From an uncultured Oscillospiraceae bacterium (GTDB taxonomy: Bacteria > Bacillota > Clostridia > Oscillospirales > Oscillospiraceae): a stretch of DNA of 64,000 nt. The DNA is taken from NCBI GenBank assembly GCA_947626345.1, contig CANQSF010000012.1, forward strand, positions 1-64,000, in the 5' to 3' direction. The position numbers and the translations under genes were made by a program. Below, piece by piece: positions 38,176 through 47,225 of the stretch. Position 1 is the stretch's first letter. Each line of letters starts with the position of its first letter. Under the pieces are notes generated by a model that was not told where the DNA came from, ran no database searches, and was given only the letters and a program-made list of their open reading frames with translations.

Positions 38176-38266
38176 CGTTATATGAAGCAGTTTTGCCCTG
38201 CTACAGAGCTTTTGCCGGTGCTCACACTGCACCAATAATCTTGCTGGCAATTCAGGACAGTTTTGC

Positions 38267-38358
38267 AAAATTGGTGCACTGCACCATTTTTGTCACGGCT
38301 TGAACAAATTTGCTACGGCTTGCACCAATTTGTTACGGCTTGGCGAAAAAGTGGTGCA
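38267..38358 (-). repeat. 20-bp tandem repeat array C (reverse orientation)
   Basis: 92 bp. Plus-strand units: TGCACCATTTTTGTCACGGCT-like, TGAACAAATTTGCTACGGCT (38301-38320), TGCACCAATTTGTTACGGCT (38321-38340), flanked by AAAATTGGTGCA (38267-38278) and GTGGTGCA. It is an exact length and layout match to the array at 42969. One stray half unit (TGCACCAATAAT) lies at 38228. Confidence 0.85.
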
Positions 38359-38423
38359 GTGTGAAAGATTATTTGGAAATCCGAGCGTATGAATGATTGA
38401 ATCGCTCTCTGGACGCAGAAAAA

Positions 38424-38448: not shown

Positions 38449-39048
38449 GTGCTTAGGCGTTTCCTTGTTCGAGGATCACATCATCAGTTTGCGGATGAGG
38501 GCGTACTGCTGGCCCTGTATGGCTACACGCTCATCCCGGTGTGTGAGGCCATGGCGGACCGCAAATCATTCGCGTTCCGGCCAGGGCGGTCTCCCCAGGA
38601 CGCCCAAGCCTATATCCTCAATGCCCTAAAAGGGGCTCACGCCCCGGAGATCATCGTCCGAGGCGATATAAAGGCTTACTATGCCAGCCTCCACCATTCC
38701 TGGCTGCTCGGCAACGCGCCGATGGACAAAAAGGTGCTGAAGGAATTTTTGGATGCTGGCTATGTATACGCAGGGCTGATCTCTGGCTGTGAAGCCTATA
38801 TTCAGAAAGCAAAGCAGGCTCAACTGCCGACCGTCCATTTTGATGAGATCCATGATCTGCAGAGGATGTGGCAAGAGAGCAGTATAGACGGCTTGACATT
38901 CTCAATCGGGATGTATGGCATCAACAGTATGGAGATCACCATCGGCGATGAGGTCAACCAGCGCCATAACGCCATCATCACCGGTGCAGTGGGACAAGGT
39001 AAGAGCAAAAAATTATTGATCAGGGGGAAAAGCCAATGTCTATGGTAA
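38449..39048 (+). pseudogene. Fusion remnant: group II intron RT fragment joined to P-loop ATPase fragment
   Basis: Open for 199 codons but built from two unrelated pieces. Residues ~20-100 look like a group II intron reverse transcriptase (PVCEAMADRKSFAFRPGRSPQDA, GDIKAYYASLHHSWLL, PMDKKVLKEFL) lacking the catalytic YADD part. Residues ~105-195 look like an internal piece of an FtsK/SpoIIIE-like ATPase (FDEIHDLQRMWQ, SMEITIGDEVNQRHNAIITGAVGQGKSKK, with Walker A GAVGQGKS) that stops just after the P-loop. No Shine-Dalgarno precedes GTG 38449. Most likely residue of two deletions, kept in frame by chance. Confidence 0.6.
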
Positions 39049-42650: not shown

Positions 42651-42900
42651 TACAATATCCATATGGCCCAGTATGAGGCTGGCGGGATTCTGCATTTACA
42701 CGGCAAGCCGCAAAATTGGTGCAGTCCGGACAAAATTGGTGCACCGTGAGTAAAATTGGTGCAGCCGTGTAAAACTGCACGGAAGGTTTTTGCAACCTCC
42801 AAACCTGACGTGCAAAGGCAAGATTTTTTCAGGACATGGCGTGCAAAATATTAACCGCCAAAAATACCGATAAACCCCTGTTAATTGGGGTTTATTTTAT
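42651..42900 (+). ncRNA. Candidate repeat-containing small RNA unit A
   Basis: A promoter-like TACAAT (42651-42656) in a block conserved with unit B is followed by three AAAATTGGTGCA repeats at 42712, 42732 and 42752 (period exactly 20 bp). Then come small hairpins (CCGTG/CACGG; AGGT/ACCT) and an intrinsic terminator TAAACCCC/GGGGTTTA with a T-rich tail (42870-42900). No open frame with a ribosome site fits. The -35 box is weak. Unit B at 46978 has the same order of parts and is alignable over ~190 bp. Confidence 0.55.
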
Positions 42901-42968
42901 TGTTTGCGCAAATTTCCGAATAGTTTTCTCGGCTTTAACGCGTCAAATTTTTGTGTACAGATTCTCCC

Positions 42969-43060
42969 AAAATTGGTGCAGTGCACCAATTTTGTCACGG
43001 CTTATACCAATCTGCTACGGCTTGCACCAATTTGTCACGGCTTGGCAAAAAATTGGTGCA
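42969..43060 (-). repeat. 20-bp tandem repeat array D (reverse orientation)
   Basis: 92 bp. AAAATTGGTGCA-G-TGCACCAATTTT forms a 25 bp perfect palindrome (42969-42993); then units TATACCAATCTGCTACGGCT (43003-43022) and TGCACCAATTTGTCACGGCT (43023-43042), and a final AATTGGTGCA to 43060. Same length as array C. It converges on unit A with the terminator at 42870 between them. Confidence 0.88.
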
Positions 43061-43148
43061 TTGGCCCGGAGATTAGGGTACAGTACAGGTCGTGACCCTT
43101 TCGTGAAAAACTATCTAGGGATTCTGTACAGCATGGTATAATTAGTAT

Positions 43149-43544
43149 GTGAATAGTTCGAAACAGAAAGGTAGGATTGTAATACCCGGTGGTCGCCGGC
43201 CTTGGCCGCACGAACTGCGCATAGCTGATATCTTAGCGATGGCTGGGCACAACATTGAGTTTCTGTCAGAGTCCAATGTCAGCACGGCGGATATATTACT
43301 AGACGGGGTGGAATATGAGCTGAAATCTCCCTTCACCAATAAGCCAGACAAGCTAGAGCGCAATCTCAAGCGAGCCCTCAAGCAGTCCAAAAACATCATC
43401 TTTGACTCCTATAGAGTCAAAAATATGCGCGATGACAGTCTGCGTCGTTTCCTCATTAAAAAAGCTCGAGAACAAAAGCAGATCGGCAAGCTGCTTTTCA
43501 TCACGAAGCACGGCCAAATTATTGACATCACTTCCCTTGTTTGA
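43149..43544 (+). CDS. CdiA C-terminal-type PD-(D/E)XK nuclease
   Basis: 131 aa stand-alone protein resembling the tRNA-nuclease domain at the C-terminus of contact-dependent inhibition toxins. Restriction-like core: D48 (TADILLDG), E57-L-K59 (VEYELKSP), then the helix KLERNLKRALKQSKNIIFDS and a final strand KLLFITKHGQIIDI. GTG 43149 lies ~7 nt after a TATAAT (43137-43142), so the message could be leaderless; no ribosome site is seen. No immunity gene is adjacent, and no secretion signal exists, so a toxin role is uncertain; repair or recombination use is an alternative. Confidence 0.75.
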   Translation: MNSSKQKGRIVIPGGRRPWPHELRIADILAMAGHNIEFLSESNVSTADILLDGVEYELKSPFTNKPDKLERNLKRALKQSKNIIFDSYRVKNMRDDSLRRFLIKKAREQKQIGKLLFITKHGQIIDITSLV

Positions 43545-43550
43545 TATAAT
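43522..43550 (+). promoter_or_regulatory. Consensus promoter at the end of the nuclease gene
   Basis: TTGACA (43522-43527), 17 nt spacer, TATAAT (43545-43550): perfect hexamers. Predicted +1 coincides with the first bases of the 50-bp repeat E1. Confidence 0.8.
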
Positions 43551-43559
43551 GTAAATATC

Positions 43560-43609
43560 GAAGTCCTTGCACGGGGCAGTATGCTCCTACCGCAGGGGCT
43601 TCTTTATTG
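43560..43609 (+). repeat. 50-bp hairpin repeat E1
   Basis: Identical over 50 bp to 46747-46796. Outer stem GAAGTCCTTGC / GCAGGGGCTTC pairs at all 11 positions with G.U allowed; inner stem GGGGCA/TGCTCC; then TTTATTG. With the consensus promoter ending 9 nt before it, it may be a ~50-nt transcript or a transcription-start-proximal attenuator. Confidence 0.8.
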
Positions 43610-43918
43610 TCCGGCCAAAATAAAGACGCCACAGAACAATTTACTATAATATATATGCTATATTCATATGCGGTGCGCACCGAAGGGAGAGATACTTGGG
43701 GCGGAACCTGCTTTTTCATAGGCAAGCCATAGTCTCAATAAGCAAGATGATAGCACGAAAAAACCTTGGCGGGAACGAATCCAGACCAAGGCGCTGTACT
43801 TTAATGATATACCAAGTTATCCTAAACGTCAATGGTGATCATGGCGGCGGCATAGTAACACTTTTATTAGACAACGAGTGGATTTGGGTAAAATTTTTAA
43901 TTATCTAATGCGCACTTA
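43610..43918. other. AT-rich stretch between E1 and FISUMP promoter
   Basis: Contains an isolated TATAAT (43645-43650) and a 70-codon frame starting with TTG 43696 that has a GGGAGAG site but no recognisable protein features. No confident gene. Confidence 0.35.
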
Positions 43919-43947
43919 TTGTGCAAATAATATTTCTGTGATATGAT
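43919..43947 (+). promoter_or_regulatory. Promoter of the large FISUMP gene
   Basis: TTGTGC (43919-43924), 17 nt spacer, TATGAT (43942-43947). The predicted +1 (~43954) is the first base of the inverted repeat below. Confidence 0.65.
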
Positions 43948-43953
43948 GGAAAT

Positions 43954-44110
43954 GCAAAACACAATTATCTGCGGTAAACGAGCACTTTTCTGGCTTTGAT
44001 CATGATGGAACATAAAAATGGCACCACAAGGCCACCTTTACGTATGTTCGATCATGATTGTTCGTATGTAGGTAATTGTGTTTTGCATCCTTGCGGTGCC
44101 ATTTTTGTTA
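43954..44110 (+). promoter_or_regulatory. Structured leader with interlocked inverted repeats and terminator
   Basis: IR1: GCAAAACACAATTA (43954-43967) pairs perfectly with 44073-44086. IR2: AAAAATGGCACC-a-CAAGG (44014-44031) pairs with CCTTG-c-GGTGCCATTTTT (44089-44106). Their arms interleave, so they form a pseudoknot or exclude each other. IR2 ends in TTTTTG like a terminator. A third pair GAACATA/TATGTTC (44007-44013 / 44043-44049) sits inside. Reads like an attenuator or riboswitch-type leader; class unknown. Confidence 0.6.
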
Positions 44111-44183
44111 TGGGAGGTGAGAAAGCAAATACGGCCTGCGAGTAAATAAAATTAAGAGAAGTTACAAGAGAGGTACGCTAGGC

Positions 44184-46640
44184 ATGGCTGTAATATATGC
44201 GTTATTAAAGGTATATTATTATAATGTTCTCGGTCTTTTTGACCGCTTAATTTATATTGATCATAAAAGTAATAGGCGCTATTTCTGTGCCAATGGCTCA
44301 TTTTTACTTCTCCCATTGGCACGGAAATGGCGCTTATTTGCGACCGCCTGTACAAGTTTATTAATTTGTATTTGTGTCACGCACACGGCGGCCGCAGCGT
44401 CATTAACGATTAGCATTCCAAATACCCTCTCGCTGGATGTTACCCCAAGCGCAGCAGGAACCTTCGTAGAATCCGAGGAGGCTAAGATATCTATCATTGG
44501 TGCGGATTTCGGGTACACCTTAAGCATTGCCTCTCAAGACGGCAAGACTAATGATCTCATCGGGGAGCACGGCACACTTCCGTCTATTAAAACTCAATAT
44601 ACCGGCGCGCAGGGAGAAAGCGGCGCCTGGCCCGTTAACACCTGGGGCTATAAACCGGATAAGCTCAACGGTTCACTTAATGAGGCTTATCTACCGGGCC
44701 CCACGGACGGAGATGTCATAGAGCAACTGCCTACAGCACTTGGCGCCAATCACGAACATACCATCAAAATTGCCGCCAAAGTAGACAATACCATTGCTGC
44801 CGGGACTTACTCCAATACATTTGTGCTTACTGTCACTGCCAATAAAGTAGAATATACTATTAACTATGATGCCAACGGCGGAACGGGCGGCCCCACTGTT
44901 CAAACCGGGCAAAGTGAGAATATGAATGTTAAGCTTACCTATGAAGAGCCCGGTAGCCAAACGATGGCCTTTGAAGGTTGGTGCACCAAACCAACAAACG
45001 ATGCAACTTGTAATGGCGAGCGATATTATCCGGGTGATGATTATACATTAAATGTAGATAAAAACAATGTAACTTTATATGCTATATGGGATCAACCGGA
45101 AGCAATGCAAAACTGGTATGGCTGCAAAGATTTGGAAAAGAACCGACAAATCTCGCTGATTGATACGCGTGACAACAGGCTTTATTATGTGGCCAAGCTT
45201 GCAGACGGTAATTGTTGGATGACGGAGAACTTGGACCTATTTCTTGACCCTAATAAACCACTAACGCCGGAAGACAGTGACGTGGAAGAAGAGTGGACAC
45301 CACCGGCCACACATAAGACCGGCGACTCTGATTGGATGGGCGATAAAGTCACCGGCAATAGTACAGCAAACACGGAAAATGGCGAGAATTTACCGCAATC
45401 CTACGATCCAGGCAATCAGTGCTGGAATAACGAAAATGGTAGCTCTTACTCCGAAGATTGCCCTGCCCATGACGAGTCACATTTTCACGTGGGCAACTTC
45501 TATAATTATGCGGCCGCGGTGGCTCAGAGCGATGCGAAGGACCACGCAAATGGTGGCCAAACCTATAACACATCAATCTGTCCTTCCGGATGGCAATTAC
45601 CAACTTATATAGGCCGTAAATCCTTTATTGAGCTAAAAGAAAATACCGACACTGACCCGAACAGCCCAAATTGGGTCACCGGACCGGTTGCGAGTAGCAC
45701 AATTGACAAGGAACCTTATTTCTTCTCATACAGCGGTTGGTGGCGCGGTCATTTAGTTCAGTCTAATTCGGTTAGCGTTTGGTGGACCAATGCCGTAGTC
45801 AGCAGTACGCATGCGTATTCATTGTACATTAACACTGGCAATGCTCTGTATCTTCAAAATACCGGCACGTATCGTCTCGATGGATTTTATGTTCGCTGCG
45901 TCGCACGCGACCCATCTATGCAGGATGTGGCGGAATGGGGTGACACTATTGAGGAAGGCGAGACTGTTACGGCAATAGATGAACGAGACGGAAAAACTTA
46001 TACCGTCGCTCGGCTTGCAGATGGCAATTTGTGGATGACACAGAACCTTGCTATAGGCAGCAATGAAGAGCCGACTGTGCTTACTTATGAAAAAACTGAT
46101 CTAGACCAAGGCGTACAAATAGATGGCGAAGAGGAAGCGGGCACATTTACTCTTCCACAAGGGAGCTCAAAGTTGGCCGAAACCCCGGACGATCACGCCG
46201 GATGGCATTTCCAGCAATATAACACCAAACACATTTATATAAACGAAGATAAAGCAGAATATGGCGGTTATTACAGCTGGTTTACAGCCACATTGGGCGA
46301 AGGCACAAAAGAAATGATCTCCGGCGAAACATCATATTCTATATGCCCCAAAGGCTGGAGATTGCCAAAATTCACCGAATTCCGAAATCTCATCGCGGTG
46401 TCATCGGGCAAAATGGCTGAGCCCCCTGCTAATTTTGGAGTCTTCGCCGGCAGATGTGTAGAAAGTGGCTGTCCGAATGCGAATATGGGAAATGCCGGTT
46501 ATTGGTGGACTTCCACGGCAGCCCCAAATCCATCATATCTTGACTATGCCGGAGATATGCACGGATATAACACCGGGGAATTTGGTGCCGGCTCAATATA
46601 TAAGGGTGGCGGCAGTAGCATCCGTTGCATAGCACGCTAG
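44184..46640 (+). CDS. Large secreted FISUMP/InlB-B-repeat protein
   Basis: 818 aa extracellular protein. Hydrophobic signal RKWRLFATACTSLLICICVTHTAAA (about 47-71, so an unusually long N-terminal extension if ATG 44184 is used); domain of serine/threonine-rich beta type SLTISIPNTLSLDVTPS... (about 73-230); one Listeria-Bacteroides (InlB B) repeat with YDANGGTGG...FEGWCTKP...YAIWD (about 232-306); FISUMP domain 1 (from about 310; DTRDNRLYYVAKLADGNCWMTENLDL, ending SWWT-like around 560); FISUMP domain 2 (about 575-818; DERDGKTYTVARLADGNLWMTQNLAI to SSIRCIAR). No anchor motif. An in-frame TTG at 44316 inside a hairpin is an alternative start. Composition is far lower GC than the flanks; resembles Saccharibacteria surface proteins. 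Confidence 0.85.
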   Translation: MAVIYALLKVYYYNVLGLFDRLIYIDHKSNRRYFCANGSFLLLPLARKWRLFATACTSLLICICVTHTAAAASLTISIPNTLSLDVTPSAAGTFVESEEAKISIIGADFGYTLSIASQDGKTNDLIGEHGTLPSIKTQYTGAQGESGAWPVNTWGYKPDKLNGSLNEAYLPGPTDGDVIEQLPTALGANHEHTIKIAAKVDNTIAAGTYSNTFVLTVTANKVEYTINYDANGGTGGPTVQTGQSENMNVKLTYEEPGSQTMAFEGWCTKPTNDATCNGERYYPGDDYTLNVDKNNVTLYAIWDQPEAMQNWYGCKDLEKNRQISLIDTRDNRLYYVAKLADGNCWMTENLDLFLDPNKPLTPEDSDVEEEWTPPATHKTGDSDWMGDKVTGNSTANTENGENLPQSYDPGNQCWNNENGSSYSEDCPAHDESHFHVGNFYNYAAAVAQSDAKDHANGGQTYNTSICPSGWQLPTYIGRKSFIELKENTDTDPNSPNWVTGPVASSTIDKEPYFFSYSGWWRGHLVQSNSVSVWWTNAVVSSTHAYSLYINTGNALYLQNTGTYRLDGFYVRCVARDPSMQDVAEWGDTIEEGETVTAIDERDGKTYTVARLADGNLWMTQNLAIGSNEEPTVLTYEKTDLDQGVQIDGEEEAGTFTLPQGSSKLAETPDDHAGWHFQQYNTKHIYINEDKAEYGGYYSWFTATLGEGTKEMISGETSYSICPKGWRLPKFTEFRNLIAVSSGKMAEPPANFGVFAGRCVESGCPNANMGNAGYWWTSTAAPNPSYLDYAGDMHGYNTGEFGAGSIYKGGGSSIRCIAR
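44271..44338 (+). repeat. 26-bp inverted repeat / RNA hairpin at the FISUMP start
   Basis: Arms 44271-44296 and 44313-44338, loop 16 nt. 23 of 26 positions are Watson-Crick and the other three become G.U pairs in RNA, so the RNA stem is unbroken. It lies within the predicted N-terminal coding part. Confidence 0.75.
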
Positions 46641-46746
46641 AGCCAGGGATTACTCGTTTCCCTTCCCAATGCCGTGCGGGCTCTGCCCGGACATCCCGCA
46701 CGGCATCACAGGTTCTTCTTATTGTGTATTATATAACACACTCATT

Positions 46747-46796
46747 GAAGTCCTTGCACGGGGCAGTATGCTCCTACCGCAGGGGCTTCTTTATTG
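46747..46796 (+). repeat. 50-bp hairpin repeat E2
   Basis: Perfect copy of 43560-43609, here ~107 nt after the FISUMP stop. The upstream -10-like sequence is TATAAC (46732-46737) without a clear -35 box. The two copies bracket a 3.1 kb segment holding the FISUMP gene. Confidence 0.8.
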
Positions 46797-46977: not shown

Positions 46978-47225
46978 TACAATACCTATAAGGCCAGCAC
47001 AAGGCCGGTGGAATTCTGTATTTACACGGAAAACCACAAAATTGGTGCAATTTGCAGAAATTGAGCCAAAGGCGGAAAAATTGGTGCAGTTTGCAAAAAT
47101 TGGTGCACCGTGAGCAAAATTGGTGCAGCCGTGTAAAACTGCACGGAAGGTTTTTGCAACCTCCAAACCTGACGTGCAAGGGCATAAAGAGAGCACCAGT
47201 CCGCAGACTGGTGCTTTCTTTTTGC
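46978..47225 (+). ncRNA. Candidate repeat-containing small RNA unit B
   Basis: TACAAT (46978-46983) begins the unit. AAAATTGGTGCA occurs at 47038, 47077, 47096 and 47116, with a degenerate copy at 47057: spacing 19-20-19-20 bp. The tail GCCGTGTAAAACTGCACGG... is shared with unit A, and a strong terminator AGCACCAGTC/GACTGGTGCT followed by TTCTTTTT closes it (47192-47223). Alignable with unit A from the -10 box to ~47180. No frame with a ribosome site. Confidence 0.6.

Follow-up and report, generated by a model that had tools for sequence, protein, structure and literature searches.

Introduction

In type III toxin–antitoxin systems (ToxIN, CptIN, TenpIN and AbiQ), an endonuclease toxin is held by a short, structured, protein-binding RNA. 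Other than AbiF, the known type III toxins are relatives of ToxN (PMC12373285). For AbiF and its RNA RCd22, from Clostridioides difficile, direct neutralisation of the protein by the RNA has been demonstrated (PMC12373285). Nucleases are neutralised differently in contact-dependent inhibition (CDI), where the toxic domain, CdiA-CT, forms the tip of the secreted protein CdiA and is countered by the immunity protein CdiI. The CdiA-CT domains of Burkholderia pseudomallei 1026b and E479 are PD-(D/E)XK toxins, which cut the acceptor stem of tRNA-Ala and the T-loop of tRNA-Arg, respectively (PMC9086364).

Here we describe a locus that has features of both arrangements. It lies in a 64,000-nucleotide stretch of DNA from an uncultured Oscillospiraceae bacterium, the whole of which is referred to as the window. 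The locus pairs a free-standing nuclease of the CdiA_C family with a gene for a small hairpin RNA, which is probably the antidote to the nuclease. This pair is undescribed in the full texts that we searched, a scope that leaves most subscription papers and all preprints outside.

Results

Two identical hairpin elements in a low-GC island

Positions 43560–43609 (E1) and 46747–46796 (E2), both on the forward strand, are identical over exactly 50 nt, as an earlier note on this DNA had stated. No near copy of the 50-mer arose by chance in 100 shuffles, and a search of the 2.59-Mb host assembly, the note having suggested looking for the repeat elsewhere, found no third copy at ≤3 mismatches. The 11-bp outer and 6-bp inner stems that it had described were reproduced by computation: the fold of the 50-mer has −25.4 kcal/mol, against −12.6 for shuffles (z −5.0), and its two stems, of 11 bp (outer) and 6 bp (inner), are separated by a 2x4 internal loop and capped by a loop of 3 nt. 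Within E1 the stem-loop occupies 43560–43602 and a T-rich end 43603–43609. The consensus promoter just ahead of E1 (43522–43550, forward strand) was likewise confirmed, with 12 of 12 matches: TTGACA at 43522–43527, a 17-nt spacer with TG ahead of the −10, and TATAAT at 43545–43550. Since the −10 box ends at 43550 and the hairpin starts at 43560, the expected +1 is at about 43557, just ahead of the hairpin. The earlier note missed that this promoter overlaps the 3′ end of a gene: an ORF at 43149–43544 contains the −35 box in its last codons, and its stop codon (TGA, 43542–43544) supplies the TG of the extended −10. E2 stands alone, without a nuclease gene, and was recognised by its identity to E1 and by R1, a model of this type of RNA (type A), which scores E1 at 59.7 bits. 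Ahead of E2 there is a weak promoter-like match, by consensus only, at 46705–46732 on the forward strand (ATCACA-N16-TATTAT, 9/12). In the window, as in 12 loci related to it, tRNAs alone reached the Rfam gathering score.

The window is high-GC Clostridia DNA interrupted by a low-GC island, which runs from a tRNA-Thr gene at 38.1 kb to ~47.2 kb. The island comprises two tandem stretches, with the RNA pair in the second. Their left ends (38266–38361 and 42968–43063) are 90% identical and their right ends (42668–42820 and 46994–47184) 98% identical over 89 nt; the right end of the island has no other copy in the host assembly. The ends of the stretches are rich in TTGGTGCA repeats. They look like those of a mobile element, with no obvious transposase. 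An ORF at 38449–39048 appears by eye to be a reverse-transcriptase fragment fused to an ATPase fragment, and can be regarded as island debris.

Between E1 and E2 lies a forward-strand gene for a FISUMP (Fib_succ_major) surface-type protein (44184–46640; Pfam PF09603). The earlier note had described the repeat as lying on both sides of this gene, but the essential partner is the ORF upstream of E1: related surface-protein genes occur beside some relatives of the locus (e.g. L004, L019, L077 and L096), making FISUMP a neighbour and not a constant partner. The first codons of the gene contain a 26-nt inverted repeat (44271–44338) encoding YFCANGSFLLLPLARKW, and a similar peptide and repeat are found in the related gene at L003. 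Its leader has nested inverted repeats (44014–44031/44089–44106, 94%; 43952–43970/44070–44088, 95%), with a comparable one at L003.

A free-standing CdiA_C nuclease precedes E1

The ORF at 43149–43544 (forward strand), which stops 15 nt ahead of E1, encodes a free-standing PD-(D/E)XK nuclease-like protein of 131 amino acids, the proposed toxin. It matches the CdiA_C family (PF18451) with an E value of 1.4e-9 and 38.5 bits, the curated cut-off being 26.6, and all of 75 relatives matched the same family at E≤0.01; it is the only Pfam family common to them. Residues D48, E57, K59 and P61 are invariant across the 75 members. The best PDB matches of the AlphaFold model (pLDDT 93.4) were the CdiA-CT of 1026b (4g6v; Z 13.7) and that of E479 (5j4a; Z 7.9), and an HMM match to the 4g6v tRNase was also obtained (E 8.7e-7). 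Searches with PADLOC and NCBIfam gave scattered weak matches only. Since these structural relatives cut tRNA (PMC9086364), a tRNA is, by analogy, the likely target of the window nuclease. The equivalence of the active sites is imperfect, because the 4g6v chain has NYAP where the nuclease family has EIKSP.

The nuclease gene has a −10 box (TATAAT, 43137–43142, forward strand) 6 nt ahead of its start codon, so that its mRNA would be leaderless or nearly so. Among 84 relatives, an upstream −10-like box was found in 55, ending 6–8 nt ahead of the start codon in 41, and a ribosome-binding motif was rare (7/84).

Distribution in Saccharibacteria and Clostridia

The same gene, promoter and hairpin are present in a second Oscillospiraceae assembly (L003/L004), with 85% protein identity and one mismatch in the hairpin. 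Candidatus Saccharibacteria also have relatives, of which L006 has 82% protein identity and two hairpin mismatches, and L007 has 55% protein identity. Altogether the nuclease family occurs in 56 of 199 genomes of the parasitic Saccharibacteria, the group of L006, with up to 11 copies per genome, and in 5 of 240 from a wider sample of the same phylum. Among 245 Clostridia, the genomes with the family are the host and three others, all from a single further genus; in these three the gene is followed by RNAs of other types, themselves known in Saccharibacteria. R1 matches 34 of the 199 Saccharibacteria genomes and, among the 245 Clostridia, the host only. The nuclease–RNA pair came from, or is common to, Saccharibacteria. 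Viral contigs yielded neither a match to an exact 27-mer nor a confirmed match to the nuclease protein, and blastn of the region against phage and plasmid collections gave none. These loci come mostly from metagenome assemblies, and all the evidence is comparative.

Several copies lie within ~1.5 kb of tRNA genes (L008, L009, L012, L036 and L061), and in another Oscillospiraceae genome (G275, L005) a phage-type integrase is encoded ~3 kb upstream of its copy. Another Patescibacteria genome (G812) has more distant CdiA_C proteins (L136 and L140), with a convergent promoter-and-hairpin candidate at the 3′ end.

The hairpin covaries and is preceded by a conserved promoter

The earlier note proposed covariance analysis as a check on the hairpin. 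When 27 type-A hairpins were aligned by sequence alone, 14 of the 17 base pairs showed compensatory, double-sided changes; 86% of alignment cells were paired, compared with 38–49% when the partners were slid, and none of 500 shuffles equalled this. The common type-A shape is an outer stem of ~9–11 bp, an internal loop of 2 nt/4 nt and an inner stem of ~6 bp. Relatives outside type A have RNAs of other sequence, some with a similar fold outline (e.g. type B), which suggests that the RNA types may share one architecture. Type labels other than A were assigned by eye; regular expressions tried for this were too loose and were discarded.

The promoter is conserved as well. Around the end of the nuclease gene, a −10-like box was found at 84 of 93 loci (shuffled mean 39), an exact TATAAT at 42 (shuffles 5) and TTGACA at 46 (shuffles 2.6). 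Both boxes, in the layout seen at E1, are present in 45 of the 93, with 17-nt spacing in 38 of the 45. A strict detector for promoter, hairpin and T-tract found 71 of 95 downstream regions, as against 24 of 173 control windows. At six loci (L014, L016, L017, L067, L121 and L145) small RNAs, alike or unlike in type, stand in tandem, some each with its own promoter; these are possible antitoxin arrays.

RNA and nuclease form one unit

Does the element always follow a gene, as the earlier note had thought worth checking? Largely so: in the 199 Saccharibacteria genomes, 32 of the 40 R1 matches (E≤3.4e-5) lie 19–153 nt downstream of a nuclease-family gene on the same strand, an adjacency that is partly by construction because the training hairpins were mostly gene-adjacent. 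The matches independent of training are those in tandem or adjacent in G588, G576, G422:C19 and G555, plus 8 unlinked ones. These 8 have no linked same-strand family gene. Beside one solitary RNA (L122) there is a stretch resembling the 3′ end of the nuclease gene, another (L124) sits past a nuclease gene remnant, and L121 has two RNA types in tandem. For E2, the better explanation is likewise a second RNA-gene copy that stands alone, of the kind also found in Saccharibacteria. The solitary RNA at L122 also lies directly past a HicA-like ORF.

Below 60% protein identity, similarity of the RNA region still rises with that of the protein (Spearman rho 0.23; reached in none of 2000 permutations), whereas similarity of the flanking DNA does not (rho 0.01 and −0.03). 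Co-divergence without the flanks shows that RNA and protein are passed on and maintained jointly, which is not by itself proof of binding. A recurrent neighbouring protein family, as a candidate protein antitoxin, was sought and not found; the largest cluster, of surface proteins, covered 6 loci.

Such tightly co-diverging pairs would also fit an effector ribonucleoprotein, in which the RNA serves the nuclease as cofactor, guide or substrate and does not inhibit it. The pattern of loss makes this unlikely. Among 82 intact nuclease genes none lacks a candidate RNA, detected automatically at 69 and recognised only by eye at the other 13 (L025 is truncated by a contig end). At 11 of 13 broken or partial nuclease genes automatic detection still found the RNA; at L007, where the nuclease gene has an internal stop, there is none. 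Retention of the RNA beside broken or lost nucleases is unexpected for a cofactor, and is the order of loss expected of antitoxins that outlive their toxins. Moreover, the RNA stops at its terminator and has no variable guide segment, and the related 1026b CdiA-CT is active in vitro without added factor (PMC4364669).

Given its T-rich end and its position just downstream of a gene, the hairpin might be a mere intrinsic terminator of the nuclease gene, with the promoter-like sequence there by chance or for a gene further downstream. However, most relatives have a consensus promoter with fixed spacing between gene and hairpin, and the conserved internal loop would be superfluous in a plain terminator. 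In several relatives (e.g. L057, L068, L084 and L085) the RNA is convergent on the opposite strand, with its own −10, an arrangement for which a simple 3′ terminator cannot account. The element also persists without the gene, and in L033 and L037 a further terminator-like hairpin lies past it. This reading is therefore very improbable. Where the earlier note left a choice between a tiny RNA of ~50 nt and a terminator placed at +1, the covariation, the conserved promoter and U-tract and the opposite-strand RNAs speak strongly for the RNA, the hairpin of which is also its own terminator.

The layout here, with a small RNA beside the gene for a toxin-like protein, is common among type I systems. 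In a type I system the RNA would base-pair with the nuclease mRNA, but in 70 pairs cognate partners showed no excess over non-cognate ones, either in duplex energy (−28.56 versus −28.61 kcal/mol) or in the longest perfect complement (6.5 versus 6.6 nt), and many of the predicted mRNAs are leaderless. Antisense pairing was accordingly rejected, and we regard a type I mechanism as hardly tenable.

Two identical copies flank a gene within a low-GC island with terminal repeats, and from their identity at a distance of 3 kb the earlier note had suggested a recent duplication or a gene-cassette recombination site. An integron attC-like or REP-like repeat spread by a nuclease is very improbable, since the element has no other copies in the host, follows one nuclease family and not varied cassettes, covaries as an RNA that diverges along with the protein, and is matched to a promoter whose layout would be left unexplained. 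An assembly join at the island may be considered too; the presence of the same module in the second assembly speaks against it.

Discussion

The genes, promoter motifs, RNA structure, linked divergence, distribution and toxin fold computed here lead us to favour, with fair confidence, a toxin–antitoxin system with the nuclease protein as toxin and the RNA hairpin as the agent that neutralises it, a reading that draws on sequence comparison. The locus would be a two-gene module of a small PD-(D/E)XK nuclease, toxic probably through its action on tRNA, and a hairpin RNA gene. A separate strong promoter at the nuclease stop codon would direct transcription of a hairpin RNA of ~43–50 nt ending in its own terminator. 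Most likely, the folded RNA would hold the nuclease inactive by binding it directly, with the inner stem and the conserved 2x4 internal loop as the contact. Because the RNA promoter is a consensus one, and the nuclease mRNA is predicted to be leaderless with a promoter that is mainly a −10 box, the RNA should be in excess; the sequences suggest that the RNA is abundant and the protein weakly expressed. Were the module lost or transcription shut off, for instance by a phage, the short-lived RNA would decay and the nuclease would be freed, and through this the module might have a role in phage defence or in maintenance of the island. E2 would then be an extra copy of the antitoxin. We prefer direct neutralisation of protein by RNA as the best account of why the internal loop is conserved, why cognate RNAs and proteins diverge together, how the two genes are arranged for dosage and why the RNA outlasts the nuclease. 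One point against a toxin–antitoxin pair of this kind is that, for the known relatives of the nuclease, the neutralising partner is a protein, CdiI, and not an RNA.

Somewhat more cautiously, we propose that these loci represent a new protein–RNA toxin–antitoxin family. It would comprise stand-alone CdiA_C (tRNase-like) nucleases, each with a cognate, rapidly diversifying single-hairpin RNA, reaching up to 11 copies in Saccharibacteria genomes of ~0.6 Mb and shared by Clostridia; its RNAs, which at some loci stand alone or in tandem, would be of several sequence types, possibly with a common architecture. If so, it would be an abundant toxin–antitoxin family for ultra-small episymbionts, whose defence repertoire is little known. 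The loci also offer a large natural set of matched protein–RNA pairs for studies of specificity.

The proposed mode of action resembles that of type III systems, in which an endonuclease is likewise held by a short structured RNA, and extra RNA copies and tandem RNAs are features of both. However, the type III toxin has the ToxN fold whereas the window toxin is PD-(D/E)XK: CdiA_C is the sole Pfam family common to the 75 members, and the best PDB matches of the window model are PD-(D/E)XK CdiA-CTs. Type III RNAs come from an upstream tandem repeat array, read through a terminator and forming repeated pseudoknots, whereas the window-type RNA is downstream or convergent, has its own promoter and is usually one hairpin of ~43 nt. 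Since these defining features of toxin and gene order differ, we would not file the locus as a type III member, even though the proposed mode of action is alike. AbiF/RCd22 offers a parallel in that a conserved stem-loop RNA adjoins a toxic protein (PMC12373285), but its toxin is an Abi_2 protein related to Cas13 and its RNA lies upstream and has two motifs. With the CDI tRNases (4g6v, 5j4a; PF18451) the window nuclease shares domain family and fold, but in place of a domain at the tip of CdiA it is a stand-alone ORF of 131 amino acids, with no CdiA carrier, CdiI gene or recurrent neighbour family, and is paired with an RNA. If the proposed system is real, RNA-held toxins would have arisen here independently, from a nuclease fold that is otherwise found in secreted weapons countered by proteins, and the system would show a way in which polymorphic toxin domains become domesticated, with an RNA in place of protein immunity.
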